Shown here: positions 1,191 through 27,376 of the stretch, piece after piece | Layout of the letters: each line of letters opens with the position of its first letter | Numbering within the stretch: position 1 is the stretch's first letter | DNA from: a virus | Direction: 5' to 3' (one strand) | Virus record (IMG/VR): IMGVR_UViG_3300038696_000644 | Span: 1 to 28,998 of that record | DNA: 28,998 bases | The notes under the pieces: generated by a model | What the model was told of the DNA's origin: nothing | What the model saw: only the letters and a program-made list of their open reading frames with translations | The model's database searches: none | Made by a program: the position numbers and the translations under genes

Positions 1191-1212
1191 AGCGATCTCC
1201 ATGCGCAAAGCC

Positions 1213-1256
1213 GCCCGCAGATGCGGGGCGGGATGCAACATTCAGGGTTTCAGGGG
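1213..1256 (-). promoter_or_regulatory. Repeated motif plus GC-rich hairpin upstream of the endolysin gene
   Basis: The gap upstream of the endolysin holds TTCAGGGTTTCAGGGG (plus strand 1241-1256). Next to it, on the gene side, is a short GC hairpin (CCCGC/GCGGG with an ATCT loop, extended by three more pairs past a bulge). The same motif in nearly the same form, again followed by a hairpin, occurs before the sheath gene at 8866-8923. It may be a regulatory or RNA-processing element of the late operon, but the function is inferred. Confidence 0.35.
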
Positions 1257-1287
1257 ATGTAGTGGGCGTGGGGCGGTCAGCGCCGCG

Positions 1288-1632
1288 TCAGGCCAGCATG
1301 AGCCAGGAGGCCAGCAGGCCGATGATCGACGAGACGGTTCCCGCGATCGCGAACCCGGCCAGGACGATCTTGCGCATGGCCTCGGTTGCATCTTGATGAG
1401 CCTGGTGCCGGGCCTCCTGCGCGATGTTGTAGACCTCGTTCTGGTGCACCTGCTTTGGCAGGCCGCTCAGGGCAGCGCCGCCGGTTTCCAGACGCACCAG
1501 CCGCGTGATGAAGTCCTGCACCAGCGCCGACGTCTCCTTGCGATGCTCTTTGGCGTCGGTCAGCTCGGCTTCGATATGGCGCAACGTGCTGCGTATCGCT
1601 GCGATTTCAGATCGCAGATCGTTATCTGTCAT
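1288..1632 (-). CDS. Small protein with C-terminal membrane helix, possible holin or XhlA-like
   Basis: This 114-residue protein begins with a long charged helical, probably coiled-coil, region (residues 1-85) and ends with one hydrophobic helix (about 90-112, containing IVLAGFAIAGTVSSIIGLLA). That topology resembles XhlA-type phage lysis accessory proteins, and it lies between the tail hub gene and the endolysin gene, where a holin would be expected. The ATG at 1632 is preferred because AAGAAGG lies just upstream; the in-frame ATG at 1653 has no clear ribosome site. The family is not recognised with certainty, so the lysis role rests on topology and position. Confidence 0.55.
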   Translation of the reverse strand: MTDNDLRSEIAAIRSTLRHIEAELTDAKEHRKETSALVQDFITRLVRLETGGAALSGLPKQVHQNEVYNIAQEARHQAHQDATEAMRKIVLAGFAIAGTVSSIIGLLASWLMLA

Positions 1633-1681
1633 GGGCTTGCGCCTTCTTGTCATATGTATGTTTCGCGAGGTCGGCGCGGCG

Positions 1682-2695
1682 CTAGCGGTCGTCAGAGCCA
1701 GCCCCGTCCTGCGGCTGCTTGAGGTCCAGCGTCGTCACAAATCCGCCCGCGCGGGTGTAGCTGTGGGTTACCGTTTCGATGCGATACGCACCGTCGATTC
1801 CGGGCCGGGTGCCAGCGACGATGCACAGCCCGTCCGGGATGGCCCCTGTGTTACCCTCGATGCTGACTGTGCCCTCACCCTGATCCCGCTCACTGGTCGC
1901 CTTGTCGCTGTCGGTCTGCTGATCAGTCTCGAAGTCCCAAGGCTTCGCAAATCGAAAAGCATGGAGCGCGCTCACATCGAGGTCGATCGCTCGATCCGCC
2001 AAGTTCCACGCCGCACCGATCATGTCATACCAGCGCCCGCGCGTGACGTTGAATTGGGGCCTTCCAAGCTGCGGCGCGATATCCCAATGGTGAAGGTTCT
2101 CGCCCCAAACCGCCCTGATAAACGCCGTGTAATTGCCATTCCGCTTTGACAGGATCGCGGTGTCGCCCACGATGCGGAAGTTGCCCCCGACCTCGCGGGC
2201 GATCCGCTCGCCCATGTGAATGAAGCTCTCGTCACGCATCTCAAAATAAGCGCGCGACAGTCCAGCGAGCGCAGGGTCCACGTCAACGTTCGGGATACCC
2301 GCGTAAGCGGCGGCATCGGACAGGATCGCCGATATTGTCGTGACGTCCCAATGCCGCTGCTGCCCCTCTTTCGGCTTGCGTGTGGTATCCATCCCCTTCG
2401 CCGTGATCGTGAGCCTGCGGCCGCCACCCCGGCTGCCCGTGGATTTGACCTCATCAACCGTGCCGGTAAATATGTTGCGGAGCCCGTCTTCCTCCCAGCC
2501 GAGCGCGACCGTCACCTTGGCCCCCTTCCTGGGCAGGATGATGCGCGCCTCGGTATCATCGACCTCAAGATCAACGCTGTCTGTGTGCGTCCCTACCTTG
2601 TCCGAAACGCGGATGCCGATCAGGACCGGCTCCAGCTGCGGGGTGATGTTGGTCCCGCCAACCGTCACTTCAAATAGCGCGCGCTTATACGACAT
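1682..2695 (-). CDS. D: Late control gene D-type protein (baseplate hub, P2 gpD-like)
   Basis: The 337-residue protein matches the phage late control D/VgrG-like hub family in length, order and content, with an N-terminal FEVTVGGTNITPQLEPVLIGI-type beta domain and repeated beta-rich segments such as KGAKVTVALGWEEDG. In contractile tails this hub sits under the tube and carries the spike. It follows the U and X genes exactly as in P2-like tail operons. Gene X ends seven bases before its start. The C-terminal end is polar and rich in Gln and Asp. The name refers to the P2 gene; regulation of late transcription is not implied. Confidence 0.88.
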   Translation of the reverse strand: MSYKRALFEVTVGGTNITPQLEPVLIGIRVSDKVGTHTDSVDLEVDDTEARIILPRKGAKVTVALGWEEDGLRNIFTGTVDEVKSTGSRGGGRRLTITAKGMDTTRKPKEGQQRHWDVTTISAILSDAAAYAGIPNVDVDPALAGLSRAYFEMRDESFIHMGERIAREVGGNFRIVGDTAILSKRNGNYTAFIRAVWGENLHHWDIAPQLGRPQFNVTRGRWYDMIGAAWNLADRAIDLDVSALHAFRFAKPWDFETDQQTDSDKATSERDQGEGTVSIEGNTGAIPDGLCIVAGTRPGIDGAYRIETVTHSYTRAGGFVTTLDLKQPQDGAGSDDR

Positions 2696-2701
2696 GCCTC
2701 G

Positions 2702-2929
2702 TCACCACAGCTTGATTGGGTCTTGCCACACGCGCGGGCGTGGCTGCGGTATCGGCAGGCTGAACACAGTGCCGATGGGAAGAAACTGGCCTAAATCGGC
2801 CAGCCCCGGGTTTTCGTCATAAACGCGCTCAACCAGCCCGGGCATGGGCCGCCGAAACCGACGCCAGACGATCAGCGAGAGGGTCAGATCATCACCCTCC
2901 ACAGTCACTTTCTCGATCACGGCTTTCAT
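2702..2929 (-). CDS. X: Tail protein X (LysM-like, P2 gpX-like)
   Basis: This 75-residue protein has the size and pattern of the phage tail X family: a charged N-terminus, DLTLSLIVWRRF, then VYDENPGLADLGQFLPIGTVFSLP, which resembles the NPxLAxxGxxLPxGxxIxLP signature of these LysM-like proteins. It probably acts in baseplate or hub assembly. Its ATG overlaps the gpU stop codon as ATGA, so the two genes are likely translationally coupled, and the hub gene D follows at once. Confidence 0.88.
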   Translation of the reverse strand: MKAVIEKVTVEGDDLTLSLIVWRRFRRPMPGLVERVYDENPGLADLGQFLPIGTVFSLPIPQPRPRVWQDPIKLW

Positions 2930-3348
2930 ATGAACAGGTCCACCAGTGATGCAAAATACTGACCCGCCGACGGCTTGTCAGTGCGCTTTACCTTGATATC
3001 AAACTCGATGACCTTCCCGACGCCATCCTTGTCGAGATAAGTTGAATTTTCCGACACGCTCAGGATCACCACCCAGCCCATCAGAACGCCGTCGCCGCGC
3101 ATCAGGTATTGTGGCCGCCCGGACAATCGCGCGTCATAGAGCAATTTAAGCTCGTCCATCCCCCCGAATTTCCCCGGGTATATTTTGCCCTTGATCGTCC
3201 AGCTTTCCGGCCCTTCGCCGACATACTCAAGCGGAGGCCGCACCCCGAGGACTGGCTTCTCTGCGAAGCCCGCCTCATGGCCGTGGCCGTATGCGTGGGT
3301 GTTGAACGGGATCACCTGAAACTGCACTGGCCCGAGAACCATTATCAT
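2926..3348 (-). CDS. U: Tail protein U (P2 gpU-like)
   Basis: The 140-residue protein resembles the GpU family of P2-like and Mu-like contractile tails: an N-terminal MVLGPVQF strand, the region RPPLEYVGEGPESWTIKGKIYPGKFGG, and LLYDARLSGRPQYLMRGDG. In P2, gpU takes part in tail completion and tube termination. The ribosome site TAGGAGG overlaps the stop codon of the tape measure gene and lies about eight bases before the ATG at 3348; a second ATG at 3342 is possible. It is coupled to X by an ATGA overlap. Confidence 0.88.
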   Translation of the reverse strand: MIMVLGPVQFQVIPFNTHAYGHGHEAGFAEKPVLGVRPPLEYVGEGPESWTIKGKIYPGKFGGMDELKLLYDARLSGRPQYLMRGDGVLMGWVVILSVSENSTYLDKDGVGKVIEFDIKVKRTDKPSAGQYFASLVDLFI

Positions 3349-3360
3349 TTAGGCATCCTC

Positions 3361-6270
3361 CTACGCGAAGCGCATCGACGTGTCCGCAAAGACGCCCCGG
3401 AACAATTCTCTCACTTCACTACGCATGACGTCGCGCATCTGCGAAGCAATCTCCCCCGCATCCTCGGCCCGTGTATTGTGGAATTGGAACTGCGGCGCGA
3501 AGTGGATCGTCGCCCCGGTCAATGCCGGGGCCAAGCCGTTCGCGTGGACGTATCCATCTCTCTGCGCCGTGATCAACTCCGGCCCGTCCTCGCCCACCAG
3601 ATAGTTGCTCCCGCGAGAGATGGGGCCGCCACTGGCCCGTGCGCCATCAATTTGCGGCACCGATGGCGGCGCAGATGCCACCGCGCCGCCCTCGACCGCA
3701 GCCATTTCAGCGCGGAGTGTCCGCACGCGGTCGAGTGCTCGGTCGATGGAGGTGGTGTCGATCTCGGGTGTGGTGTCCGTTTCCCCGAGAATCCGCAGCG
3801 CCTCTGTCACTTCGTCCGCACGTTCACGCCCAGCCTGCAGATCGCCTTCGACCGCGACCAGCTCATCCTGCAGCCGCCTCAGGTCTGCCTGCAAGGGTGC
3901 GGCCAAGCTGCCCCCCATCGGCCCGTTCTGATCGATCTGATCAATCTGCGCCTGCACGCCAGCCATTTCACCGCGCAAGAGTGCGGCATAGTCTGACAAC
4001 TCGTTGAGGTATTCCGACGTGGGCAGGTCGCCAGCCTGCCGGGCAGACAAAAGGGTTTCGGCAGCCGCACGCTGATCTGTGGGTAATGCGTCGATTGCCT
4101 GCTGGCTTGGCGGCGCTGGCATGGACGGAGGCGTCACCTCCTCTTCCCCCATCATCCAGCGCAGCCAACGCGGCGGCTCGCCAAAGCTGATCATGCTGGA
4201 CAGATCAATGCTGCCGATCGCGTCGATGATCCTTCCGGGGATGCCTGTGAGCCAAGCCACGAACTCGTCAAACTTCGCAACCGCGCCGTCCCAGATGGAC
4301 TGGATCATGCCGCGACCAGCCTCGAGCAGATCGCCCGCCATCTCGCCCAGCCGGGCAGGCATGCCGGTGAACCAGCCAATGATATTCTCGGTGACTTCCC
4401 GCGCCCGTTCGGTGATCTGGGCGATGTCTTCCTCGGACAGAGTCTCGCGGGTGAACAGCCCCGACAGCAACGCGCCAAGCCCCGACAGCTTGTCCCGCAC
4501 CCAACCCCAGGCTGCACCGAACCCATCGACCAGAGGCGTCAGAAAGGACAGCTTTTCACCGACCCAATCGAGACCTGGTTGCAGCGCTGCGCTAATCGCC
4601 TGACCCACGCCGGTGAAGATCGCGCTGATCCGGTCCCAATACCGCCAGATGGCAATGCCAGCCGCAGCCACAGCAGCAGCGACCAGTGCGAACGTGCCCC
4701 AGACCGGGGCCGAAATCGTGGCCACGGCCGCGCCGATAGCGGCAATGCCCGACGACAATGCACCGACGCCCGGAATGGCCAGTGCGATCCCGGTGAGCCC
4801 GGCACGCAATGTGCCAAGCGTGCCGAGGGGCTGGCCAGACATGGCCGCCAGCGCAGATTGCAATCCGATCATGGAACTTGACGCTGCGCGCGCGCCAATT
4901 GCGGCGCGCCCGATGGAATTATAACCGGCCGCAATCAGCGAAAGAGCACCACCACGGCCCAATAGCCCCGCGAACCGCAGCGCCGCCATGGCCCCCTTGA
5001 ACGCGATCACCGCCGCGGTCGCTCCGACGACGGCCAGCGTCACGTCTGGATATGCATTTGCCAGATCGGCCAGACGGGTGATCAGGGGCCCGACCGCATC
5101 CACCAGTTGTGAGATCGCGGGCATCAGCGCGTTGCCGATGCTGATCTGCAGCTCGGTCAGGACGTTCTGGAAGCGCTGCATGTTGGCTTGGAACGTGGTG
5201 TTCCGCGCCTCAAACTCAGCAAAGGCAGACCCCGCATAGGTTGCGCGATCCCCGACCATGCCGAGCGTTTCCTCGACCAGCCCGAGATTGGTCAGCAGCG
5301 GGCCAAGGGCGCGCGCCTCATTGCCAAAGAGCTGCGACGAGATCGCCGCGCGCTGTTCCGCTGGAAGCTGGCCGATGCGCCGCAGCACGTCGATCGTGGT
5401 CTCGACCGCGTTTTCCTGCATGGACCGCGCGGTTTCTTCCGCGTCGAGCCCCAACTCCTTGAACGCACTGCGCTGGGATTTGGTGGCCGCTGCGCCCTTG
5501 GTCAGCGCCGCGCCCATGTTGCGGAACGACGTGGCGGCCACTTCGCTGCGCGCGCCCGCGGCAAGCATCGCGGAGGCAAAGGCCGAGGTTTGCTCGGCCG
5601 TGAAGCCGAACATGGTCGCCTGTGCGCCGACCCGCTGGACCACGTCCAGAATATCGGCCGCGCTCGAGGCCTGGCTGTTGGAGAGGTGGTTCATCGCATC
5701 TGCCAGCGACACCGTCTCGTCGATGGTGAGCCCAAGCGCCGTCATCAGGTTGGCCATCGAGCCACCCGCCTGCTCGGCGCTGATATCAAACGCCACGCCG
5801 ATCCGGGCGGCAGCATCGGTGAAGCGGATCAGGTCCTGCCCGGCAATCCCGGCCTGACCCGCCGCCGCGGCAATGTCCGCCAGACCGTTCACCGCAATGG
5901 GAATGTCGCGCGACAGGGCGAACAGGTCCTGCTGGAACTGCGTGAAGGCTTCCGGCGTGGGGAAGTCGACCACCTTGGCCACATCGGCCATCGCGCTCTC
6001 GAAATCGGCGGCCGCCTGGATCGGGGCACCGATCGCTTGGCGCAGCGCATAAAAGCTGGCGACAGCATCCACGATCCCGCCGCGCGCAGTTGCCAGCGCC
6101 CGATCGTTTCGGGTGATCGCGGCGTTGAGCCTGTCCCCGAAGGTGATGGGCTGCCCATTGCTCTCCCGGACCGTGTTGGAAATGCCCGCCAGCGCATTGG
6201 TCGCGCGGCGGGCAGGCCCGGTTACCCGGTCGAGAAGCTCGATGACCAACTGGGACGTAAGTGTGGACAT
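3361..6270 (-). CDS. T: Tail tape measure protein
   Basis: At 969 residues this is the longest gene in the window. It has the TP901-type tape measure core around residues 80-340 (ADFESAMADVAKVV, then alternating helical Ala/Gly-rich segments), a long hydrophobic stretch at about 405-545 that would insert in or contact the host membrane during DNA entry, and a C-terminal helical and polar region. A GRASGGPISRGSNYLVGEDGPE-like segment near the end (split here as SGGPISRG and GEDGPEL) is typical of tape measure C-termini. The protein sets tail length and occupies the tube lumen. It follows the E/E' chaperone frame with only a three-base gap. Confidence 0.92.
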   Translation of the reverse strand: MSTLTSQLVIELLDRVTGPARRATNALAGISNTVRESNGQPITFGDRLNAAITRNDRALATARGGIVDAVASFYALRQAIGAPIQAAADFESAMADVAKVVDFPTPEAFTQFQQDLFALSRDIPIAVNGLADIAAAAGQAGIAGQDLIRFTDAAARIGVAFDISAEQAGGSMANLMTALGLTIDETVSLADAMNHLSNSQASSAADILDVVQRVGAQATMFGFTAEQTSAFASAMLAAGARSEVAATSFRNMGAALTKGAAATKSQRSAFKELGLDAEETARSMQENAVETTIDVLRRIGQLPAEQRAAISSQLFGNEARALGPLLTNLGLVEETLGMVGDRATYAGSAFAEFEARNTTFQANMQRFQNVLTELQISIGNALMPAISQLVDAVGPLITRLADLANAYPDVTLAVVGATAAVIAFKGAMAALRFAGLLGRGGALSLIAAGYNSIGRAAIGARAASSSMIGLQSALAAMSGQPLGTLGTLRAGLTGIALAIPGVGALSSGIAAIGAAVATISAPVWGTFALVAAAVAAAGIAIWRYWDRISAIFTGVGQAISAALQPGLDWVGEKLSFLTPLVDGFGAAWGWVRDKLSGLGALLSGLFTRETLSEEDIAQITERAREVTENIIGWFTGMPARLGEMAGDLLEAGRGMIQSIWDGAVAKFDEFVAWLTGIPGRIIDAIGSIDLSSMISFGEPPRWLRWMMGEEEVTPPSMPAPPSQQAIDALPTDQRAAAETLLSARQAGDLPTSEYLNELSDYAALLRGEMAGVQAQIDQIDQNGPMGGSLAAPLQADLRRLQDELVAVEGDLQAGRERADEVTEALRILGETDTTPEIDTTSIDRALDRVRTLRAEMAAVEGGAVASAPPSVPQIDGARASGGPISRGSNYLVGEDGPELITAQRDGYVHANGLAPALTGATIHFAPQFQFHNTRAEDAGEIASQMRDVMRSEVRELFRGVFADTSMRFA

Positions 6271-6273
6271 GGG

Positions 6274-6689
6274 TCACCTCATCTTGGTGGCGAGCGCAAT
6301 ACGCTGCGCTTGCGCGTGCCAAAGCACCACCTCGGACCACTCCATCTCCTCAAAGGCGGTCAGGGGTGTGTTCAGCCAGTGGGCAGTTTCGGCAACGACC
6401 GACCGCCAGGAGCCGAAGCCGTGCCCTTTGGGAAAAAATCAGCGATCACCTCGGAGATCGCCGTGAAGTCGTCGGTGTCGAGCTCCTCGATCACATCGAC
6501 CGGATAGCCCGTCAGCGTCGAGGCCATGACGATGCCCTGATCCAGACGATCGGTGACGCCGTCGAGTGCCGCAGTCATCCGCTTGAGGTCTTTGACCTTT
6601 GGCTTGGAAATGCGGACTTCAGCAATCTCCCTGCCCTCGAATGTCACTGGCACAGAAAGCTGGACTGTTTTCGTCCTGGAATCAGACAT
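6274..6689 (-). CDS. E': Tail assembly chaperone E+E' made by programmed -1 frameshift
   Basis: Shifting one base back at 6426-6438 opens a frame that runs past the E stop codon to a TGA at 6274-6276, giving a product of about 138 residues. The new C-terminal part includes LNTPLTAFEEMEWSEVVLWHAQ, split here as LNTPLTAFEEMEW and SEVVLWHAQAQRIALATKMR. It resembles the GpE' tails of P2-like phages, with a Trp-rich short helix before the tape measure gene. The E' part has no good ATG and ribosome site of its own near the slip site, which supports frameshifting. The fusion is known in lambda, P2 and Mu to bind the tape measure and guide tail assembly. Confidence 0.8.
6372..6689 (-). CDS. E: Tail assembly chaperone E (unshifted product)
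   Basis: The 105-residue product resembles the gpE/Mu gp41 tail assembly family (TVQLSVPVTFEGREIAEVRI, then KVKDLKRMTAALDG). It lies between the tube and tape measure genes, where contractile and lambda-like phages encode a pair of assembly chaperones made by frameshifting. Residues after about 88 (TASAPGGRSLPKLPTG) are low in structure, as expected for a short readthrough tail made when no frameshift occurs. The ribosome site is weak (GGTGA next to the ATG). The longer form is listed separately. Confidence 0.88.
   Translation of the reverse strand: MSDSRTKTVQLSVPVTFEGREIAEVRISKPKVKDLKRMTAALDGVTDRLDQGIVMASTLTGYPVDVIEELDTDDFTAISEVIADFFPKGTASAPGGRSLPKLPTG
6426..6438 (-). promoter_or_regulatory. 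Tandem -1 frameshift slippery sites in gene E
   Basis: Read on the minus strand the site is TTTTTTCCCAAAG. In the E frame (GAT TTT TTC CCA AAG) it holds two overlapping X XXY YYZ heptamers, T TTT TTC at 6432-6438 and C CCA AAG at 6426-6432. Slipping back one base at either heptamer enters the E' frame. A GC-rich stretch follows, which could stall the ribosome. Confidence 0.8.
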
Positions 6690-16969: not shown

Positions 16970-17857
16970 CTATTCGTCGCGGTTGTAAGCCAGCTTCAAC
17001 ACGACCTCCTTGATCGCGTAGACGCCCGTCTCACCCAGGACCAAGTCCTCTGCCGGCTCGATCAGATCGACGCTGTGAACGCCCTCGACGTGCAGCCGGG
17101 AGTAGATCGCGGACCGGCGCAGGTTCATGCCCAGCATCCGGTTCGCCTCCAGCCAGTCCGTCAGTGACGTCTGCGCCGCCGCGAGAACCGTGTTCTGATC
17201 CGGCCCGGGATAGAGCGTGATCGTCGCCTTGATCCGGGCCTCAAACACATTCGGGGCAAGAACCTCGACCATATCCGTCAATGGCCGCACGTCGTTATCG
17301 ACGAGCGCCATCCTGATCACCTCCAGTTCGTCAGGTGTGGGCCGGGGCTGATCCCCTGACCGCAGGATAGACACGCGGACGCGGCCCGGCTTGGTCATGA
17401 TCGCCGATGCGTCACGCGCCCAATCCGCCCGGGTCAGCGCGTGATAGACATAGGCCCCTTTCGGCCCGGCAACGCTGAACGCATCCGGCGCAAGCTGAAC
17501 GCGGCGGCGCAGGCGCGTGTCGCTCTCATTGACCAGATCGCCAGCCGCATCCTCGACCCTCATGCGCGACACCGAGAACAGGGCCGCCAGATGATCAAGG
17601 TCATTGCCGGTCGCGCTTGCGACCATGACCGCGCGGGCCGCGTCATTAATCCGCGCCCGCAGGAGCATCTCGCGATACGCAAATGCCTCAAGCAGCTTGC
17701 GCGCCGGTTCGCTTTCTAGGTCAATCACACCTTCGATCAGGGGAAAGCGCGCGACCAGATCATCGCACATGTCTGTCAGGATCGCCTCGAAGGCAAGTTC
17801 CTCGACAATATCCGGCGGGGTCATTTCTGACAGGTTGATCGCAGTAAACCGGCTCAT
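16970..17857 (-). CDS. J: Baseplate assembly protein J (P2 gpJ-like)
   Basis: This 295-residue protein is close in length to P2 gpJ (302). It has the expected N-terminal helical region (IVEELAFEAILTDMCDDLVAR), the family-typical ARINDAARAVMVASATGNDLDHLAALF, and a central ADWARDASAIMTKPGRVRVSILRS that matches the conserved beta domain of baseplate wedge J proteins. It forms part of the baseplate wedge with gpW and gpI. The start overlaps the gpW stop (ATGA-type overlap at 17854-17857), and gene I follows nine bases after. Confidence 0.92.
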   Translation of the reverse strand: MSRFTAINLSEMTPPDIVEELAFEAILTDMCDDLVARFPLIEGVIDLESEPARKLLEAFAYREMLLRARINDAARAVMVASATGNDLDHLAALFSVSRMRVEDAAGDLVNESDTRLRRRVQLAPDAFSVAGPKGAYVYHALTRADWARDASAIMTKPGRVRVSILRSGDQPRPTPDELEVIRMALVDNDVRPLTDMVEVLAPNVFEARIKATITLYPGPDQNTVLAAAQTSLTDWLEANRMLGMNLRRSAIYSRLHVEGVHSVDLIEPAEDLVLGETGVYAIKEVVLKLAYNRDE

Positions 17858-18288
17858 TGCGCGCGCATCCTCTGCTCGATGAATACACCGTCAGGATTGG
17901 CATAGGCGCTGATCCTGCGCGCGCCCTCCACAGAGAAATCGCCATACATCGCCCGGGGGCGATACTCGCCCTCCAGGAAAAAATGCAACTGGCCGTCGCG
18001 GGTTGCGCGCTGCACATCAATCCGCGTGATCCGGTATCTCGGCTCCCACTGCTCGATTGCGGACGTGACCGCAGAGAACCACGGCGTCACCTCGTTGGGC
18101 GTGATGATCCGCCCGAGCAAGTTTGGCACGAAAGAGCCATACCATTCCCGCATAACGCGGGTGCCGAATTGCGTGGTGAAAATATCTTGCAGGCTCTGGA
18201 CGACATGCGGCCATCCGGTGCGGATAGACCCGGTTGTCGCGTTGAAGCCGACGCTCGGGTTGCTCAGATCAACGATTTCCTCGGCCAT
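17854..18288 (-). CDS. W: Baseplate assembly protein W (gp25-like)
   Basis: The 144-residue protein has the GPW/gp25 fold signature: a middle LQDIFTTQFGTRVMREWYGS segment (the typical LxxILxTxxGxRxMRxxFG pattern), NEVTPWFSAVTSAIEQWEPRYRITRIDV, then a terminal strand. It is part of the baseplate wedge and is also related to type VI secretion TssE. The ribosome site GGAGG lies eight bases upstream. It is the first phage gene after the 3.4-kb insert, which now separates it from gpV and the head genes. Confidence 0.92.
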   Translation of the reverse strand: MAEEIVDLSNPSVGFNATTGSIRTGWPHVVQSLQDIFTTQFGTRVMREWYGSFVPNLLGRIITPNEVTPWFSAVTSAIEQWEPRYRITRIDVQRATRDGQLHFFLEGEYRPRAMYGDFSVEGARRISAYANPDGVFIEQRMRAQ

Positions 18289-18375
18289 ACCCTGCCTCCT
18301 GCGTGAAATGGCCGCCTCGCGCCTGGGGACGGCGCAGCGCGGGCATCACCTGCCTCTAGGTCGCGCGCGCCCTAG

Positions 18376-18395
18376 TGTTCTGCATCTGACGCAAG
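18376..18395 (+). repeat. Left terminal inverted repeat
   Basis: Sequence TGTTCTGCATCTGACGCAAG, preceded by CTAG at 18372-18375. The reverse complement of 21778-21797 is TGTTCTGCACCTGACACAAG, with two differences. Confidence 0.65.
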
Positions 18396-18512
18396 CTTCC
18401 CAGTCTGCTTCTGGCACGCCTCCAACGTTCATACGGAGGTCCGAGCGGCAGCTATGCGCAGATAGAGAACTTTGCAAAGTTTGACCCGTTTCCCGACAGC
18501 GGATGAGGTGGA

Positions 18513-18522
18513 TGGCTCCTGC
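18513..18522 (+). repeat. Left subterminal inverted repeat of the IS110 element
   Basis: TGGCTCCTGC pairs with GCAGGAGCCA at 19835-19844. A second TGGCTCCT complement (AGGAGCCACCCA) at 18573-18584 overlaps the transposase ribosome site, so the left end could fold back over it and affect translation. Confidence 0.65.
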
Positions 18523-18584
18523 TCCCCCAGCATCAAATGTGCCAGAATGCAGTTGTCATCAACTGCTAAGAAAGGAGCCACCCA

Positions 18585-19601
18585 ATGTCAGTAAAGACAG
18601 TCGGCCTCGATTTGGCCAAGGATGTTTTTCAAGTTCACGGTATTTCCGAGAACGGCCGCGTGATCTTCAATAAGGCAATCAAACGCGCGAAGCTGCTTGC
18701 GTTCTTCGAGACTTTGCCCCCTTGCGTAATTGGCATGGAAGCCTGCGGGTCGTCTCATCACTGTGCGCGCACTTTGCGCAAGCTCGGCCACGATGTAAGG
18801 CTGATGCCTGCGAACTACGTGAAGCCCTATGTCAAACGCGGCAAGACAGATGCGGTTGATGCGGAGGCAATTTGCGAAGCTGTCAGATGGCCAACAATGC
18901 GGTTTGTCAAAATCAAAACGGACCAGCAGGCCGTTCTCTCGATCCATCGCACCCGCGACCTCACCGTTCGACAGCGCACGCAGATGGCCAATATGATCTG
19001 TAGTTTGCTGCGCGAATTCGGTCACATTTTGCCCTTGGGTGTTGAAGCAGTAACAGCTTTTGCAAAGCGCCATCTCGATGGTGATCAACCAGACATACCC
19101 GACATCGCCAACGGCATGCTGGGAATGCAGTGCTATCAGTTCATTGGACTGAGTGAACGCATCACAGGCTATACCAAGATGATTGAACAACACGCTTTGC
19201 TCAGCACAGATGCACGTCGGTTGATGGGCATGCCGGGCATCGGCCCGATCACGGCGTCTGCGATTGTCGCGACCATTGGCGATGCCCATCAGTTCCGAAC
19301 AGGCCGTGACCTGGCGGCTTGGCTCGGACTAACCCCGCTCAATAAATCCAGCGGAGGAAAGGAACGACTTGGGAAAATCACCAAGAAAGGGGATCGGTAC
19401 ATTCGCAAATTGTTGGTAGTCGGCATGACGTCGCGCGCTGTCATGGCCAAGCGTTCGCCGGAAAAGGTTGATCTTTGGACAGCCAAAATCATTGCCGAAA
19501 AACCATTCCGATTGGCAACAACGGCAATGGCAAACAAGGCGGCTCGTGCCATTTGGGCCATGCTCACAAAGAAACAAGAATACCGGCAGCCAGCGTTCTA
19601 A
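18585..19601 (+). CDS. IS110-family transposase (DEDD)
   Basis: The 338-residue protein has an N-terminal RuvC-like DEDD domain with Asp9 (VGLDLAKD), Glu52 (GMEACGSSHH), Asp89 and Asp92 (KTDAVDAEAI). It also has a C-terminal Transposase_20 domain around residues 205-300 (LMGMPGIGPITASAIVATIGD, then the conserved SSGGKERLGKITKKGD, with Ser255/256 as the likely nucleophile). IS110 enzymes recombine DNA guided by a bridge RNA made by the element. The frame is intact from ATG to TAA, with AAAGGAG upstream. It reads against the phage late operon. Confidence 0.95.
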   Translation: MSVKTVGLDLAKDVFQVHGISENGRVIFNKAIKRAKLLAFFETLPPCVIGMEACGSSHHCARTLRKLGHDVRLMPANYVKPYVKRGKTDAVDAEAICEAVRWPTMRFVKIKTDQQAVLSIHRTRDLTVRQRTQMANMICSLLREFGHILPLGVEAVTAFAKRHLDGDQPDIPDIANGMLGMQCYQFIGLSERITGYTKMIEQHALLSTDARRLMGMPGIGPITASAIVATIGDAHQFRTGRDLAAWLGLTPLNKSSGGKERLGKITKKGDRYIRKLLVVGMTSRAVMAKRSPEKVDLWTAKIIAEKPFRLATTAMANKAARAIWAMLTKKQEYRQPAF

Positions 19602-19834
19602 CCGCGCTGACTGCCAAGAGATGCAAGACGTTGAAGTGATGATGCGGAATTAAGTCAACCAAGAGCAAGGACACTCCGGGAAGGTCCGCGGCCCTCTGAG
19701 GTCGATAAGCCGAATGGAACCTCGCTCGCGGAACTCATCAGGGCCAGTGACGACAATGCCGTCACATAAACAGGCCGGACACACGACTGTACTGACTAAA
19801 AAGACCGCAAATATCACCAGAAAACCCTTGCAAT
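19602..19834 (+). ncRNA. Candidate IS1111-type bridge (seek) RNA region
   Basis: The 3' noncoding end of the IS, between the transposase stop codon and the right subterminal repeat, is where IS1111-group elements encode their guide RNA. It contains a clear hairpin, GTGACG/CGTCAC with a seven-base loop, at 19747-19765, and other short pairings nearby. Exact RNA ends, loops and target-pairing segments cannot be fixed from sequence alone. A 109-codon frame that begins inside it is probably not a gene. Confidence 0.5.
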
Positions 19835-19850
19835 GCAGGAGCCACCCACA

Positions 19851-20050
19851 CAGGACCTTCGTGCAGACTGCGGCGAACGACGGCAGCGAGCCCGTTTTTG
19901 TTACTCTTCTAAGCGAGACTTTTGATATCCGATCTGCTGGTGCGCAAGACCCAGCACCTCATCGAAAGCTGAATAAAGAGTTCACCTTCCTACATCTCGG
20001 TCATATGATGCCAGCACCGATCTGGCGTTCCAAACAGGGTTGAAGGATAG
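19851..20050. other. Noncoding stretch between the IS110 element and the GlmU-like gene
   Basis: No convincing gene is seen. This part belongs to the larger insert and was probably joined to 18396-18506 before the IS110 element landed. AAGGA at 20043-20047 is a plausible ribosome site for the GlmU-like gene, although its spacing to the ATG is short. Confidence 0.5.
19898..19926 (+). promoter_or_regulatory. Weak candidate promoter of the GlmU-like gene
   Basis: TTGTTA and TTTGAT are separated by 17 bases, each matching four of six consensus positions, about 125 bases before the ATG. It is the best sigma70-like match I found upstream, but it is weak. Confidence 0.25.
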
Positions 20051-21424
20051 ATGTCGAACACTGAGCAGGCAGTTATTTTGCTAACAGCAGGTCACGGAAC
20101 CCGGATGCAATCGCGGACGGCCAAAGCACTTCATAGAATAGGCGGCGCTCCGCTGCTCCATCATGCTATGAATTCAGCACAAGCTCTAAAGCCCTCCAAA
20201 GTTATAGTCGTTGTCGGCTCCGGAGATGGCGCCAACAACATAGCTCGGTCAGCGACCCAGTTTGATCCCACCACAATCATTTCAGTACAAGATGAGCAAT
20301 TGGGCACGGGCCATGCTGTGATGTCCGCGGCCGACGCTTTATCCGGCTTCGGAGGTGTCGTGACTGTCCATTACGCAGACGCTCCTTTGATTACGGGAAT
20401 AACACTCCAGAGGCTTGCCTCTGCGGCGGAACGCAACGACATGGCGTTGCTTTCCTTTCACGCCAAAGAGCCAGGGCGTCATTCCCGAGTGATTATCGAC
20501 GAATCGAAGCGTGTTTCGAAGGTTATTTCATTCAAGGATGCAAGTAGCACAGAACTCGATAGCAGCTTGTGCTTTTCCGGGTTATTATCTGGCCAATGGG
20601 AAACTTTGTCTAAAGCTCTACAACAAATCAATAATAATAACGCGGCGGGCGAATACTTCCTAAGCGATGTGATAGATATCGCCTTACGTACAGAGGGAAA
20701 TATCTCATGTGTAACGTGTGAAGAAGAGGAAGCGTTCGATGTAAACGACAGAGTGTCTCAGGCCAATGTAGAAGCCCTATGGCAAAAACGGGAGCGCATG
20801 AGTGCTATGCAAAGCGGTGTCACGCTGGTCAGCCCCGAAACTACCTATATGGCTTTTGGTGCCACATTCGGTCGCGATGTTGTTGTAGACCCGTACTCGA
20901 GCCTGGAAGCCGGACGCGCCTATCCAGACGGATCGCATATTCGTCCAACTTCAACAATTTCAGCAAGCTCTATTCAGGAGGCGCTTAAAGGGCGCCTGAT
21001 AGATATCCATTTTGGATTGGGGGCTATTGCTGAATTGATCGCACATGAACGCGAAAGAGTCAGAGGTCGGAATGTCGAAAGTGAGGTCGATGTAAATGAG
21101 AGAGATCAACAACTTGAGCTATTCGATAAAGTGTTAATTAGGGTCGACCAACTTTCGGCAAGAGTCCCGGGCGAAGAGGCAGAAATTACAGACGAAAAGG
21201 TGGAGGATTTGGTCCGTATCCTCCGTAGTTTTAAGCAGGAGGTGGTTCAGTGGTGTGAGGAGAACATGACGGAGGTAGTTGATGGCGGCAACAGGTTGAT
21301 CCTGATAGGGTCCACGTCAGCCATATTCAGTCTTTTTAGTGCTCCGCTGATCGGTATAGGTGTAGGAAGCGTGCTCTTCGGAGGAAAGAAAGCAGCCGAG
21401 TTGGCTAAGGCGCTCAGGGGATAG
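20051..21424 (+). CDS. GlmU-derived nucleotidyltransferase fused to a helical membrane-anchored C-terminus
   Basis: The 457-residue protein is a chimera. Residues 1-255 match the uridyltransferase half of GlmU: LTAGHGTRM (11-19), Lys25, QLGTGHAV (83-90), YAD with Asp110, NNNNAAGEYFLSDV, and Asn232 in DVNDR. Aligned by eye with E. coli GlmU, the metal and catalytic residues Lys25, Asp105 and Asn227 are kept. Sugar-pocket positions differ: GYGR reads RHSR, the Glu before HKDA is Ser, and the Asn of NTG is Phe. The left-handed beta-helix acetyltransferase domain stops after one or two turns near residue 305. Residues 310-410 are helical and charged, and 415-445 form a hydrophobic segment, probably a membrane helix or hairpin. 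The housekeeping enzyme is about 450 residues but has no such C-terminus, so sugar specificity, if any, is unknown. Confidence 0.8.
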   Translation: MSNTEQAVILLTAGHGTRMQSRTAKALHRIGGAPLLHHAMNSAQALKPSKVIVVVGSGDGANNIARSATQFDPTTIISVQDEQLGTGHAVMSAADALSGFGGVVTVHYADAPLITGITLQRLASAAERNDMALLSFHAKEPGRHSRVIIDESKRVSKVISFKDASSTELDSSLCFSGLLSGQWETLSKALQQINNNNAAGEYFLSDVIDIALRTEGNISCVTCEEEEAFDVNDRVSQANVEALWQKRERMSAMQSGVTLVSPETTYMAFGATFGRDVVVDPYSSLEAGRAYPDGSHIRPTSTISASSIQEALKGRLIDIHFGLGAIAELIAHERERVRGRNVESEVDVNERDQQLELFDKVLIRVDQLSARVPGEEAEITDEKVEDLVRILRSFKQEVVQWCEENMTEVVDGGNRLILIGSTSAIFSLFSAPLIGIGVGSVLFGGKKAAELAKALRG

Positions 21425-21777
21425 GCTAAACCCCACCTCATTGAGACTTTTATTTCTGGTTAAATGTTCCACGCAACGTCGATCCAGAAAGTAAATATTG
21501 GGAAACGGAATCGCAACAAACGCGCCACGCTGGCTCAGAGACGCGGTCAAAACCCACCGTTTTCGACACTGCGGGTTTCGTAAGAGCCAATGTTGGCGCT
21601 CATGCAGCGAATTGGTGCTCCGTCCGCAGTGTGCCAGTTCGCGTGCGGCGCGGTGAAGGTCCGCTATCGCAAACTCGCGTCTAAGACCGTGGGTCCGCTC
21701 TGGGCTGACAACCGTCATCCGAGATTTTCGCTAGGGATACTTGCCTCCTGACCTCACGTTTGATTCCAGACGGGCAT
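21425..21777. other. Noncoding right flank of the insert
   Basis: This 353-base stretch lies between the GlmU-like stop codon and the right terminal repeat. A minus-strand frame of 133 codons crosses it and runs back into the 3' end of the GlmU-like gene; it has no ribosome site and no recognisable domain. No terminator, RNA gene or transposase remnant was found. It may be debris from the element's history. Confidence 0.4.
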
Positions 21778-21797
21778 CTTGTGTCAGGTGCAGAACA
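21778..21797 (-). repeat. Right terminal inverted repeat
   Basis: The plus strand reads CTTGTGTCAGGTGCAGAACA, followed by CTAG at 21798-21801. It pairs with 18376-18395. The flanking CTAG contains the TAG stop codon of the next minus-strand gene. Confidence 0.65.
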
Positions 21798-22037
21798 CTA
21801 GCTTGACGCCTTCTTCGCGGCATCAGCGGGCGCTGATGCCGCCTTATCGGATTTGTCGGCCTTGGCCGCGCTCGGTCGCTTGATCGTTTTGGCCTGATCT
21901 TCGAGGTCCACCAGCGCCCCGTTGCGCAGGTCGTGCTTCGCCTCCTTGTCGGCGAGCGTCAAAATGGTGCCGACGCCCGTGTTGTTGCGGCCCGCCACCA
22001 TCGGGCCAGCCTTCTCCGTGATCGCGTATCGCTTCAT
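21798..22037 (-). CDS. Small hypothetical protein after gpV, Lys/Ala-rich tail
   Basis: The 79-residue protein has an ordered N-terminal half (MKRYAITEKAGPMVAGRNNTG, then VGTILTLADKEAKHDLRNGALV) and a low-complexity tail of Lys, Ala, Ser and Asp. A ribosome site (GGAAGAA) lies upstream, and the gene follows gpV after 16 bases. Its TAG stop codon lies in the CTAG that borders the insert, and removing the insert with one CTAG would leave the same stop, so the protein is probably unchanged by the insertion. The family is not recognised; a baseplate or tail accessory role is likely from position. Confidence 0.65.
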   Translation of the reverse strand: MKRYAITEKAGPMVAGRNNTGVGTILTLADKEAKHDLRNGALVDLEDQAKTIKRPSAAKADKSDKAASAPADAAKKASS

Positions 22038-22053: not shown

Positions 22054-22653
22054 TCATGTTCCCGGCACTCTGCCGGGGACTTTTGGTGACCCGGTGGGTT
22101 GCGGGCCGGGTTGGATGGGCGCAGACGCCGGAGCCGGAGGCCAGACTGACGCACCCGAGACAATTGGCTGATTGGCGAAGATCGCCTTGTCCACGCTAAG
22201 GCCCGCGTTCCAAACCCGGACCCCGCCCTCGCTTATGACAAGGCCAGTCTCCCCGACCTTGATCACGACCTGTTCTTCTTTGATCTCGATGCGCACCTTT
22301 CCAAACGTCAGGACGTTTTCAGACGTCCAGTTTGACGGCGTCGGGTTCGGCTGCGACCAATGCAGCGGCACAGCCACCGCTTGCTGAAAGTCGCCGGTCG
22401 GGCTGACCATTGTAAATTGTTGGCCTATGACTGGCGGCGTGTGAACCTTGAGCGCCCCGGCGAATTGCGCATACGGCACCCAAGGCGAAAGGAAGCGGCC
22501 CGACCCGCCATGCGCAGGCCCGAGATCAAGGCGCACGCGCAGCATGTCCATATCGACTTCGGCCACCGTGCCGTGCCGCATCATGCCGGTGACACGGCGC
22601 TCCAGATCGGTGACCCGCGCAACAAGCTCGACAAGTTCCTTAAGCGCCATCAT
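22054..22653 (-). CDS. V: Baseplate assembly protein V (tail spike, P2 gpV-like)
   Basis: The 199-residue protein is close to P2 gpV in length (211). It starts with a helical segment (LVELVARVTDLERRVTGMM), then an OB-fold-like domain (GTVAEVDMDMLRVRLDLG, WVPYAQFAGALKVHTPPVIGQQ), and a beta-helical region (VRIEIKEEQVVIKVGETGLVIS). These trimeric spikes pierce the host envelope. The C-terminus is Pro-rich and lacks a clear HxH iron-binding tip. Two ATGs follow GGAGG, at 22653 and 22650; the second has better spacing. It overlaps the end of the preceding gene by 14 bases. Confidence 0.9.
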   Translation of the reverse strand: MMALKELVELVARVTDLERRVTGMMRHGTVAEVDMDMLRVRLDLGPAHGGSGRFLSPWVPYAQFAGALKVHTPPVIGQQFTMVSPTGDFQQAVAVPLHWSQPNPTPSNWTSENVLTFGKVRIEIKEEQVVIKVGETGLVISEGGVRVWNAGLSVDKAIFANQPIVSGASVWPPAPASAPIQPGPQPTGSPKVPGRVPGT

Positions 22654-24190: not shown

Positions 24191-25222
24191 TTATGTTCGC
24201 TTGCCGGGGATCAGCACGCGCGGTCGCGTGCAGTATTGCAGGGCGTTCATCTGGAACTCGAGGTTCACACCCTTGCCGTTCTGCATTTCCCACTGCTTGC
24301 CATAGAGGCGCTGGCCCGGCGTGTTCACCGTTTCGATGTAATCAGCCGGAGCATAGACCGTGCGGAAGAGACCGGGCACGCCCATGGGCACGAGATGGCA
24401 CTTGTCGGTCTCAATGCCGACATTCTGACCACCGCGGTAGTTCATCCAGGTGATGCCGCCAAATTCGAAGGCGCCGTAGATGCCGGAATTGCCCGAATTG
24501 ATGTAGGCGTTGCGCAGCGAGGCGGCGTCGGCATAGCCCTTGTAGGTATCGCGGACTTCCTTGTGGCCGATCAGGTCGTCGAAGAACGCGTCGCCACACA
24601 GCGCGATCACGCTCGTGTAGGGCAGACCGTCGAGGATGCCCGCCATCTGACGGATGACACCGGCGCATTTCTTGCGCAGAGCCCCGTCAGTGGCGCTGGC
24701 ATTGTCGAGGTCAAAGTCGACCACGGCCTGCTGGCTTTCACCAAACTCGGTGAAATAGTCGAAGAGGACCGAGCCGTCAGCGTCCAGAAGCTGGCCGGTC
24801 TTCAGGATGTTGAGCCGGTGATATTCCTCGGTCAGAGCGAAGAACTGGCTGGCCTCCGCTGCGCGGTCCGCAATCTTCTGCTGTAACCGTTCGACAGCCA
24901 CTTCCTGACCAAAGGCCCGGACCTGCTGTACCTCGTCGGCATAGATCGCATCGTCCACCTGGAAGTGGGGCACCTTGAGCATCCGCATGGCGCGTTTCGA
25001 TTTGTCGAAGGTCTGGCCGGGACCGCCACGCGGGCTGGCGGAGACCAGCATGCGGTTCTGCTCCTTGTCCTTCTCGATCGCGATATCGAGCGTGTCGATG
25101 CTGGTGGTCTGGAACAGCCCCATCTGACCGATGCGGGAGGGCGTGTATTTTATCTCACGAAGCGCATCCGTGAGGCGCATGACGCTGAAAGCGTCCTGAC
25201 TGAAGATGTTGAGGATCGACAT
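24191..25222 (-). CDS. E: Major capsid protein E (lambda gpE-like)
   Basis: The 343-residue protein matches the lambda-type major capsid family (phage major capsid E) in length (lambda E is 341) and pattern: an N-terminal MSILNIFSQDAFSVMRLTDAL, KYTPSRIGQMGLF, PRGGPGQTFDKSKRAMRMLKV, a helical spine around 100-150, and a C-terminal GVPGLFRTVYAPADYIETVNTPGQ. It forms the shell of the head with the decoration protein encoded just upstream. The ATG at 25222, with AAAGGA nine bases upstream, was preferred to the in-frame ATG at 25282. Confidence 0.95.
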   Translation of the reverse strand: MSILNIFSQDAFSVMRLTDALREIKYTPSRIGQMGLFQTTSIDTLDIAIEKDKEQNRMLVSASPRGGPGQTFDKSKRAMRMLKVPHFQVDDAIYADEVQQVRAFGQEVAVERLQQKIADRAAEASQFFALTEEYHRLNILKTGQLLDADGSVLFDYFTEFGESQQAVVDFDLDNASATDGALRKKCAGVIRQMAGILDGLPYTSVIALCGDAFFDDLIGHKEVRDTYKGYADAASLRNAYINSGNSGIYGAFEFGGITWMNYRGGQNVGIETDKCHLVPMGVPGLFRTVYAPADYIETVNTPGQRLYGKQWEMQNGKGVNLEFQMNALQYCTRPRVLIPGKRT

Positions 25223-25347
25223 GGGGTGTCCTTTTTGCGTCGGCGCGCCAGCGACTGGCCACGCGGGATCGGCCCACAGCACGAGGGCGAGAGGGATCAG
25301 ATTTGAAATGTGAGAGATTCGGGGCTGGCGTTAGCGCACTGCGAAAG

Positions 25348-25745: not shown

Positions 25746-26183
25746 TCAGCCGAAGCGCGCATTGGCGTGGGTGATGGCTTTTGACCACCCCGCCACACTG
25801 CGCTCGGCGCGGTTGCGTTGATCGGCCGGGGTTTCGGCCCCGAGCTCGGTCTCGTGTGCGGCCCGGTCGGCAATCGTCGTGGGGACCGATGCCTTGGGGG
25901 ACGCCGTCATAACTTTCGCCGCGTCCACAGCCGTCATCTCCGTCTCGAGCGCCAGAACCAGCGCTTGCGCCTCGCGCCCTTCGGCCTCGGGCGCTGTCAG
26001 GATGGACTTGATGCGGGACGTGGCCTCGGCTTTGCCAGCGGTGACACCGGCGGTATGCGCCTCGGTGCGGGCGGCATCGACAGCGGCTTGCAGGTCGGCC
26101 GGACTGATACCGGGAACCGATGCGGCTGAAGCCACCGCAGTATCGGCCTCCATAGGTGTCTGGCATTTCGTCGAATTGGTCAT
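25746..26183 (-). CDS. Nu3: Nested scaffold protein from internal start (Nu3-like)
   Basis: Within the protease gene an in-frame ATG at 26183 is preceded by GGGAGGA three bases away, a strong ribosome site where none is needed for the longer protein. Starting there gives 145 residues, mostly helical and Ala/Glu-rich (SPADLQAAVDAARTEAHTAG, then EGREAQALVLALETEMTAV). In lambda the scaffold Nu3 is made the same way from the 3' part of gene C. The product would guide capsid assembly and then be degraded by the protease. The spacing is a little short, and no experimental support exists here. Confidence 0.7.
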   Translation of the reverse strand: MTNSTKCQTPMEADTAVASAASVPGISPADLQAAVDAARTEAHTAGVTAGKAEATSRIKSILTAPEAEGREAQALVLALETEMTAVDAAKVMTASPKASVPTTIADRAAHETELGAETPADQRNRAERSVAGWSKAITHANARFG

Positions 26184-27119
26184 GGGTCCTCCCTTTCTCT
26201 GGGGAATTGCCCCGGAGGGCGGTTGCGAGAGCGCGGCGATCACCTCGTCGAGGCCCGCCATGCGATCGGCGAGACCTTGAGCAATGGCATCCGCGCCAAG
26301 ATAGGTCCGGGCTTCTGTGGCTCGGATTGCCTGTTCGGTCATGCGACCAGCGCGGCCCTCAGCCACAATCCCCACGAACTGGTCGTAGATTTTGAGGACC
26401 TCGGCCTGCAGGTCAGCGCGCACGGCGTCCGACAGGGGCCCGAACGGGTTGCCATCAACCTTGTGCGCACCGGCATGGATCAACGTCGGCTTCACGCCGC
26501 GATCTTCCAGTTCGCCCGAGCGGTCGAGATGGGTCAGTACGACGCCGATCGATCCGACCATCGAGGTGGGCGACACGATGATTTCGCGCGCAGCACTGGC
26601 GATGCCATAGGCAGCCGAGGCGGCCACATCATTGACGAAGGCCACAACCGGCTTCACCTCGTTCACAGCGCGAACGAGGTTGGCTGTCGCAAACATGCCC
26701 GTGGCCTCACCGCCCGGACTGTCGATATCCAAGAGGATTGCTTGAACCTCCGGATCGGCTTGCGCCTCGCGCAGTTGCGCGGCAATCCCCTCATAGGAGA
26801 CGAGCCCCGAATTGGCCCCGATCCAGGCACCCCGGTTCACAAGGCTGCCGACGATCGGCAAGATGGCAACGCCGTTTGCAACGCGCATTGAGCTTACGCT
26901 GCCATTGTCGCGGCGGTGACTGCCGACAAATCGGTTGGCCTCGGGCCCCGGCAGGCTCATAGGCTCGATCCCAATCCGGCCCTGCAGCACATGCAGGATC
27001 AGATCGGCCTTGTCCGGGTGTAGCAACAGTGGGCGGTTCAGTACCCGCCCCGCGATCTGCGCCAGCGTTGGACGCGCATTCGCCACTGCAGAGTGTTCAA
27101 CATCTGGCGGCTCTGTCAT
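25746..27119 (-). CDS. C: S49 prohead protease with C-terminal scaffold region (lambda C-like)
   Basis: The 457-residue protein has a SppA/S49 serine protease domain at about residues 70-300. Visible motifs are AILLDIDSPGG (128-137), the nucleophile Ser168 in NDVAASAAYG, and Lys220 in IHAGAHKVDGNPFG, the expected Ser-Lys pair. Residues 312-457 are a helical, Ala/Glu-rich scaffold-like region. The enzyme matures the prohead by cleaving scaffold and itself. The ATG at 27119 overlaps the preceding stop codon (ATGA) with AGGAGG just upstream; the ATG at 27179 is less likely. A nested scaffold product is listed separately. Confidence 0.93.
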   Translation of the reverse strand: MTEPPDVEHSAVANARPTLAQIAGRVLNRPLLLHPDKADLILHVLQGRIGIEPMSLPGPEANRFVGSHRRDNGSVSSMRVANGVAILPIVGSLVNRGAWIGANSGLVSYEGIAAQLREAQADPEVQAILLDIDSPGGEATGMFATANLVRAVNEVKPVVAFVNDVAASAAYGIASAAREIIVSPTSMVGSIGVVLTHLDRSGELEDRGVKPTLIHAGAHKVDGNPFGPLSDAVRADLQAEVLKIYDQFVGIVAEGRAGRMTEQAIRATEARTYLGADAIAQGLADRMAGLDEVIAALSQPPSGAIPQRKGGPMTNSTKCQTPMEADTAVASAASVPGISPADLQAAVDAARTEAHTAGVTAGKAEATSRIKSILTAPEAEGREAQALVLALETEMTAVDAAKVMTASPKASVPTTIADRAAHETELGAETPADQRNRAERSVAGWSKAITHANARFG

Positions 27120-27376
27120 CTCACCCCTCCTGTTCCGAGCGCAAAGCGCCGAGGGCCACGGCCCTGCTGTTGTGCACATTGCTCTTCAAAGCGGCGAATG
27201 ACGGCCAAGAGCCGGTCGGGATGCGCACGATGATAGGTCACCGACCGCTCCACCCCGTTCGATCCCGCCCGGAACCGTACCTCCATGGCACCTTCTCCCG
27301 CGACGAGCCGGACATAGACCTGCCGCAGGCTGGCGGCCGCCGCGCAGGGATCGGCCTCGTCAATACTGATGGTCAT
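27116..27376 (-). CDS. Small head protein, gpW-like (probable)
   Basis: The 86-residue protein has a helical N-terminus (CAAAASLRQVYVRLVAG), a beta hairpin (AMEVRFRAGSNGVERSVTYHR), then a helix (PDRLLAVIRRFEEQCAQQQG) and an Arg-rich tail. This helix-hairpin-helix order resembles lambda gpW, a head-tail joining protein of 68 residues. Here, however, the gene follows the portal gene rather than preceding it. Both ends overlap neighbours by ATGA, so it is coupled to portal and protease. The assignment rests on size and pattern only. Confidence 0.65.
   Translation of the reverse strand: MTISIDEADPCAAAASLRQVYVRLVAGEGAMEVRFRAGSNGVERSVTYHRAHPDRLLAVIRRFEEQCAQQQGRGPRRFALGTGGVR

Follow-up and report, generated by a model that had tools for sequence, protein, structure and literature searches.

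The window, that is, the whole stretch of 28,998 bases of a virus record that was analysed, carries a gene that joins the uridyltransferase domain of a Rhodobacteraceae-type GlmU to a C-terminal module recurring in Rhodobacteraceae proteins, and sequence comparison shows this gene to be a true chimera, located on an IS630-type cassette in a phage (Table 1). The original prediction had described a GlmU chimera with a changed sugar pocket and a new membrane C-terminus. The chimera itself, the remodelled acceptor side and the probable membrane module have stood, whereas the C-terminus is not new and the gene proves to be cargo of an IS630-type mobile insertion cassette sitting in the phage. On its sequence, the product is best read as a membrane-tethered nucleotidyltransferase-like protein, for which nucleotide binding or an altered specificity seems likelier than a role as GlmU. 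If this anatomy holds functionally, an essential cell-wall enzyme has been truncated, given a rebuilt pocket and connected to a membrane module, and a cargo-carrying family of IS630 cassettes carries genes of this kind back and forth between hosts and phages. For Rhodobacteraceae proteins that are absent from the family databases searched, the un-named module, found behind several unrelated front ends, offers a testable handle.

Table 1. Features of the window, followed by related cassettes at other loci (positions of the latter are those of the locus named)
Feature	Position	Strand	Remarks
Baseplate proteins	16970-17857, 17854-18288	-	Phage late genes, left of cassette
Non-autonomous IS630-type cassette with fusion gene	18372-21801		3.43 kb, between late phage tail genes
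Left terminal inverted repeat, CTAGTGTTCTGCATCTGACGCAAGCTTCCC	18372-18401	+	30 nt
IS110-family insertion sequence within cassette	18508-19849	+	Ends approximate, from sub-terminal inverted repeat 18508-18522/19835-19849
IS110-family transposase, 338 aa	18585-19601	+	NF033542, 319 bits (cut-off 140); PF02371, PF01548
AAGGA, ribosome-binding-site-like	20043-20047	+	Read from sequence, ahead of ATG
Fusion gene, 457 aa	20051-21424	+	No internal stop; GC1/2/3 = 58/43/50, coding-type
GlmU uridyltransferase domain, aa 7-252	20069-20806	+	Nucleotide/Mg side kept, acceptor side altered
Left-handed beta-helix stub, aa 253-310	20807-20980	+	Short strands; no acetyltransferase active site
C-terminal module, aa 322-454	21014-21412	+	Helical stalk and glycine-rich hydrophobic segment, common to Rhodobacteraceae proteins
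Hydrophobic segment(s), aa 416-445	21296-21385	+	Kyte-Doolittle 19-residue mean up to 2.0
Right terminal inverted repeat	21772-21801	-	30 nt; CTAG overlaps TAG stop of phage gene 21798-22037 (-)
Baseplate assembly protein	22054-22653	-	Phage late gene, right of cassette
Major head protein	24191-25282	-	Phage gene
Head maturation protease	25746-27179	-	Phage gene
L007 cassette	1586-2904		Cargo: HNH nuclease with mREase_IV-type N-terminus, resembling a type IV restriction enzyme
L008 cassette	2351-4845		Cargo: AAA ATPase
L012 cassette	5373-6154		Cargo: small protein without known identity
L014 cassette	5287-6385		Cargo: small protein without known identity
L023 cassette	1309-3537		Cargo: O-methyltransferase and cyclase
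L027 cassette	1036-2416		Cargo: HNH protein
L011, L018			MITE-sized copies with the cassette repeats
L028	before 1775		One-ended copy; DUF5677 protein inside

The Cassette and Its Phage Setting

The cassette is flanked by phage tail and head genes on the minus strand, and its own genes lie on the plus strand, opposite to the phage operon. Its terminal inverted repeats are 87% complementary over their 30 nt, and the GC content of its interior is 49-55%, whereas that of either flank is 63%. The sole transposase detected within it is of the IS110 type; two other open reading frames of the cassette that were checked have no transposase match, and the cargo consists of one gene, the fusion gene. 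Because an inverted-repeat cassette of another GC content surrounds the fusion gene, the latter is not an ordinary phage gene, and a phage-encoded metabolic gene in the usual sense is ruled out. The phage carrying the cassette is one of marine bacteria and presumably has its host among the Rhodobacteraceae.

It should be noted that the CTAG at 21798-21801 holds the TAG stop of a 79-aa late phage gene, which is left intact, and that in a different phage (L005, 216-219) the cassette repeat likewise lies exactly on a CTAG with the stop of a terminase-like late gene, again left intact.

Within the genome collection, the repeat core GTCAGRTGCAGAACACTAG was found at 31 places, nearly all of them in Rhodobacteraceae, and the repeats of the window cassette match autonomous IS630 elements of this family. 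At one locus (L010), the same terminal inverted repeats enclose an element of 1,176 bp whose main gene, of 363 aa, is read as an IS630-type transposase; at another (L021), a remnant of a DDE_3 transposase (87 bits) starts about 50 nt from the repeat and has long stretches in common with the 363-aa protein of L010. At other loci, the same repeats bound cassettes with varied cargos and without an IS630-type transposase (Table 1), and this Rhodobacteraceae family of IS630-type cassettes looks like a general gene-capture system.

Mobile insertion cassettes (MICs), for example MIC231, are cited in PMC6542083, and transporter ISs (tISs) in PMC9330008. In the window cassette, too, a passenger gene lies between terminal inverted repeats that belong to a known IS family, and no IS630-family transposase of its own lies inside. 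Since the same repeats elsewhere bound both transposase-less cargo cassettes and an IS630-type element, we classify the window element, by its sequence, as a mobile insertion cassette or transporter-IS-like element with an IS110 inside, which is presumably mobilised in trans by transposases of the IS630 family. What it has in common with MICs (MIC231 being taken as it is reportedly built) and tISs is the arrangement of IS-type inverted repeats around a passenger gene without a transposase of their own family; unlike them, it has IS630-type repeats, a CTAG target, a Rhodobacteraceae background, a chimera as passenger and a second IS (IS110) inside.

The left phage flank of the window recurs, with 1 difference in 3,318 bases, in a second assembly (L002), which also carries the same cassette; its copy of the cassette differs from that of the window only within the IS110 gene. 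Beyond the repeat, its right flank differs from that of the window, which hints at another copy of the cassette or at an assembly through the repeat. Within the IS110 gene, several positions at 18764-19077 of the window differ from the L002 copy, including a 3-base deletion, and this suggests that several IS110 copies were mixed in the source community or in the assembly.

A GlmU-Derived Domain with an Altered Acceptor Side

The fusion gene is intact and lies exactly where it had been predicted. Residues 7-310 of its product match GlmU with 277 bits in NF010933 (cut-off 505) and 228 bits in TIGR01173 (cut-off 366.85). A resemblance by chance is excluded at 277 bits, and the cut-offs of the curated GlmU families are not reached. 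The Pfam matches (PF12804, PF00483) are to a Rossmann-like nucleotidyltransferase (NTase) fold, sugar nucleotidyltransferase-like. The homology ends at about residue 310; the acetyltransferase part is absent and the beta-helix domain is incomplete, in agreement with the shortening that had been claimed. An AlphaFold2 model, built from seven sequences of which none spans the C-terminus, has a mean pLDDT of 69, with values of about 80-90 over most of the NTase domain and of 26-42 at the hydrophobic end; it contains short repeated strands at 257-298, at low to moderate confidence, and helices at 316-338, 345-371, and 381-405. GlmU structures rank first in a Foldseek search with this model, 1fxj/1fwy being among the matches, so that the structure prediction and alignment proposed with the original prediction yielded an NTase fold closest to the GlmU structures.

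An alignment of the protein with 56 GlmUs covered Rhodobacteraceae, other Alphaproteobacteria, Klebsiella, and Bacillus. Among the 59 near-invariant columns (conserved in at least 54 of the 56 GlmUs, and counted up to residue 300), 43 are kept and 16 are changed in the fusion protein. In E. coli numbers, Gly14, Arg18, Lys25, Gln76, Gln79, Gly81, Thr82, Asp105, and Asn227 are kept, and these residues we take, from the E. coli GlmU complexes, to form the nucleotide/Mg side. The uridyltransferase signature LxAGxGTRM is present together with Lys25, Asp105, and Asn227, its sole deviation being Ala12 to Thr; the retention of Lys25, Asp110 (E. coli Asp105), and Asn232 (E. coli Asn227) had been seen correctly from the DNA. 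The changes on the acceptor side are Gly140 to Ser, Glu154 to Ser, Asn169 to Phe, and Tyr197 to Phe, of which the first three had been predicted (the GYGR glycine is Ser145 of the fusion protein, Glu154 is Ser160, and Asn169 is Phe175); the alignment adds Tyr139 to His, Gly104 to Ala, and Gly225 to Asp, as well as the changes of Tyr197 and Ala12. It is worth stressing that Gly140, Glu154, Asn169, and Tyr197, presumably the sugar (GlcNAc-1-P) side, going by the E. coli GlmU structures and complexes, are invariant in 56/56 GlmUs and are all replaced here. With the sides assigned in this way, 4/4 invariants are changed on the sugar side vs 1/12, namely Ala12, on the nucleotide/Mg side (Fisher p 0.0027). 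A search of the open literature for a list of the sugar contacts of GlmU found none.

A maximum-likelihood tree places the domain inside the Rhodobacteraceae GlmU clade (support 97/95), although its exact place is unsure because of the length of its branch (3.4 changes per column, against a median of 0.37). Its identity to Rhodobacteraceae GlmU is up to 42-44%, with 42% for the best among the 56 aligned; the median identity of Rhodobacteraceae GlmUs among themselves is 65%. In summary of the comparison, the fusion protein and the GlmUs of this clade have in common the uridyltransferase fold, the nucleotide and Mg residues, and the first turns of the beta-helix, whereas the fusion protein has lost the acceptor-side invariants, carries a helical/membrane module in place of the acetyltransferase domain, and scores below the family cut-offs.

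The exact fusion was found only in the window element, in its two assemblies: scans of viral sequences and genomes returned L002 as the only second copy, and tblastn against plasmids and phages returned housekeeping-type GlmU alone, at about 40% or less. Among the matches listed for 395 Rhodobacteraceae genomes there was only housekeeping-type GlmU as well (37-44%), and no second independent or diverged lineage of the exact fusion was found in the genomes, plasmids, and phages searched. A search for the same fusion in other mobile elements, as proposed with the original prediction, thus returned only this second assembly of the same element.

Two other kinds of GlmU-like protein may be mentioned. 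Three viral contigs (L169, 3001-3738; L170, 2974-3741; L171, 2917-3732), one of them of 168 kb, encode GlmU-like proteins of 245-271 aa that consist of the uridyltransferase part alone and lack a beta-helix. On a plasmid of Paracoccus seriniphilus, a GlmU-like ORF of 382 aa that carries no annotation (L003, 5875-7023) has a shortened beta-helix; glmS follows it directly, and wecB/wecC are close by.

A C-Terminal Module Recurring in Rhodobacteraceae

The charged helical region and the hydrophobic segment that had been noticed at the C-terminus are real (modelled helices within 316-405, and the segment at 416-445). Residues 311-457 match no named domain above cut-off in Pfam, NCBIfam, or PADLOC, nor in solved structures, and they are not the end of a known GlmU variant. 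The novelty claimed for this C-terminus did not hold, in that residues 322-454 form a module present in other Rhodobacteraceae proteins. Because of this homology, a frameshifted glmU pseudogene, the alternative named with the original prediction, is ruled out.

In a sample of about 395 genomes of the larger family Rhodobacteraceae, the C-terminal residues match the C-termini of other proteins in 15 genomes (E <= 0.01; best single-sequence match, 8e-18), and a module profile at E <= 1e-4 has matches in 27 of the 395; about 20 of these are convincing, and the weakest include carboxyltransferases, apparently by chance. A leave-one-out profile gave the window protein 105.7 bits (E 1e-29) over residues 322-454, a value slightly biased by the removal of the window row after the joint alignment, and 500 shuffles gave at most 4.2 bits. 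Across 385 genomes sampled from the Alphaproteobacteria, the module is present in one, which was itself already in the family set, and a scan of viral contigs with one module relative gave no match. By these sequence searches, the module is a conserved one, un-named (outside Pfam and NCBIfam) and apparently restricted to Rhodobacteraceae among the sampled Alphaproteobacteria.

The N-termini of the module relatives belong to at least four other architectures. The largest group is helical with an FWxxWY motif; pentapeptide repeats precede the module in L118 and L120 (and, more weakly, in L095, of the same type), and L112 and L119 are singletons. A resemblance of L119 to AbiJ_NTD, suspected by eye, was not confirmed. 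Relatives such as L058, L059, L118, and L119 align over nearly the whole of residues 322-454 and share with the fusion protein the Asn that follows the first stalk helix and a hydrophobic end of FGGKK type, rich in glycine; a hydrophobic segment lies near the end in most of them. Unlike the fusion protein, they are found in cellular genomes and have an N-terminus of the FWxxWY type, of pentapeptide repeats, or of another kind, never GlmU. The hydrophobic segment of the fusion protein is probably a membrane segment, judging from its hydropathy; since the model has low confidence there and the stretch is a single one of about 30 residues, it could instead be a peripheral or buried helix.

Possible Functions of the Chimera

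The sequence shows that, by domain shuffling, the uridyltransferase half of a Rhodobacteraceae GlmU was joined to a membrane-type module in place of the acetyltransferase beta-helix. The module would anchor the protein at the inner membrane, and the GlmU-derived domain would bind a uridine (or other) nucleotide and Mg2+ and no longer handle GlcNAc-1-phosphate; we infer both the tethering and this loss from the sequence. The stub of the beta-helix may still assemble three copies, and such trimerisation is possible. The result would be either a pseudoenzyme sensor that controls the membrane module in a ligand-gated manner, or a nucleotidyltransferase acting on another acceptor. To this tentative reading, in which a shuffled, membrane-anchored chimera travels as cassette cargo, binds nucleotide and Mg2+ without handling GlcNAc-1-phosphate, and acts as a sensor or as an enzyme for another acceptor, we give a probability of about 0.45. 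Between its two versions, we slightly prefer the sensor or binding protein. There is a precedent in GMPPA, a paralogue of GDP-mannose pyrophosphorylase that is not catalytic but binds a nucleotide sugar and has a regulatory role (PMC11228364). The likeness, an analogy only, is that of a sugar nucleotidyltransferase fold that has passed from catalysis to the binding of a ligand and to regulation. GMPPA differs in that it is eukaryotic, has GMPPB as its partner and is not known to have a membrane module; no sign of a partner is seen for the fusion protein.

Alternatively, the fusion protein might be an active, membrane-anchored nucleotidyltransferase that serves surface or lipid modification and whose new acceptor is, for instance, a non-sugar or less polar phosphate. 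The catalytic R18, K25, D105, and N227 are kept, and the replacement of both Asn169 and Tyr197 by Phe has made the pocket more hydrophobic; GlmU cut off behind the uridyltransferase domain is known to fold (1fxj/1fwy, among the fold matches). Such an enzyme has nevertheless lost both Glu154 and Gly140, each of them invariant in the GlmUs aligned, and no sugar or lipid gene adjoins it in a cassette of one cargo gene, so that we regard this as possible, but rather doubtful. A decaying, non-functional fusion, in which the cassette captured a glmU fragment beside another gene and the chimera has been drifting, would fit the very long tree branch, the occurrence of the exact fusion in one lineage only, and the IS110 inserted upstream. 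At 0.1 neutral substitutions per site, however, about 5 stops are expected in 457 codons and none is present (P about 0.006), and an intact ORF of this length despite the divergence of the N-terminal domain therefore argues for selection. A drifting relic is unlikely for this reason; moreover, the 43 near-invariant positions are kept in a pattern that follows function, the C-terminal module is intact and a ribosome-site-like motif is present, and we consider decay the least probable of these explanations.

A shared C-terminal membrane-like module with varied N-termini is an architecture common in conflict systems. In a single-gene system for defence or superinfection exclusion, the GlmU-like domain would sense a change in nucleotides or cell-wall precursors during infection (or act as a decoy), and the module would permeabilise or depolarise the membrane. 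One such module behind several unrelated N-termini, with a sporadic distribution, the mREase_IV/HNH gene of a sister cassette (L007), and the mobile location in a phage all speak for it, and by analogy a role in defence or exclusion is possible. Against it, PADLOC models have no match to the fusion protein, and the only ones among its relatives are two marginal matches of L064 to GajA; no module relative was seen in a known defence locus, and the relatives stand singly among housekeeping genes rather than in defence islands (identities by eye). We therefore find this particular mechanism unlikely, and the roles in surface modification, superinfection exclusion, or defence that the original prediction offered are guesses. 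A wider idea, improbable to much the same degree, is that the module defines a family, not described before, of one-gene membrane proteins with exchangeable N-terminal sensors: the GlmU pseudoenzyme would here sense uridine nucleotides or UDP-sugars and gate a membrane effector, amounting to a portable stress or anti-phage switch that travels on IS630 cassettes and in phages.

As to the neighbourhoods of the module relatives, with gene identities assigned by eye, three of them (L101, L105, and L109) lie in an apparent cell-wall/division cluster upstream of a murB-like gene, a murG-like gene being located upstream of the relative in L101 and L109, and those of L118 and L120 adjoin a prfC-like gene.
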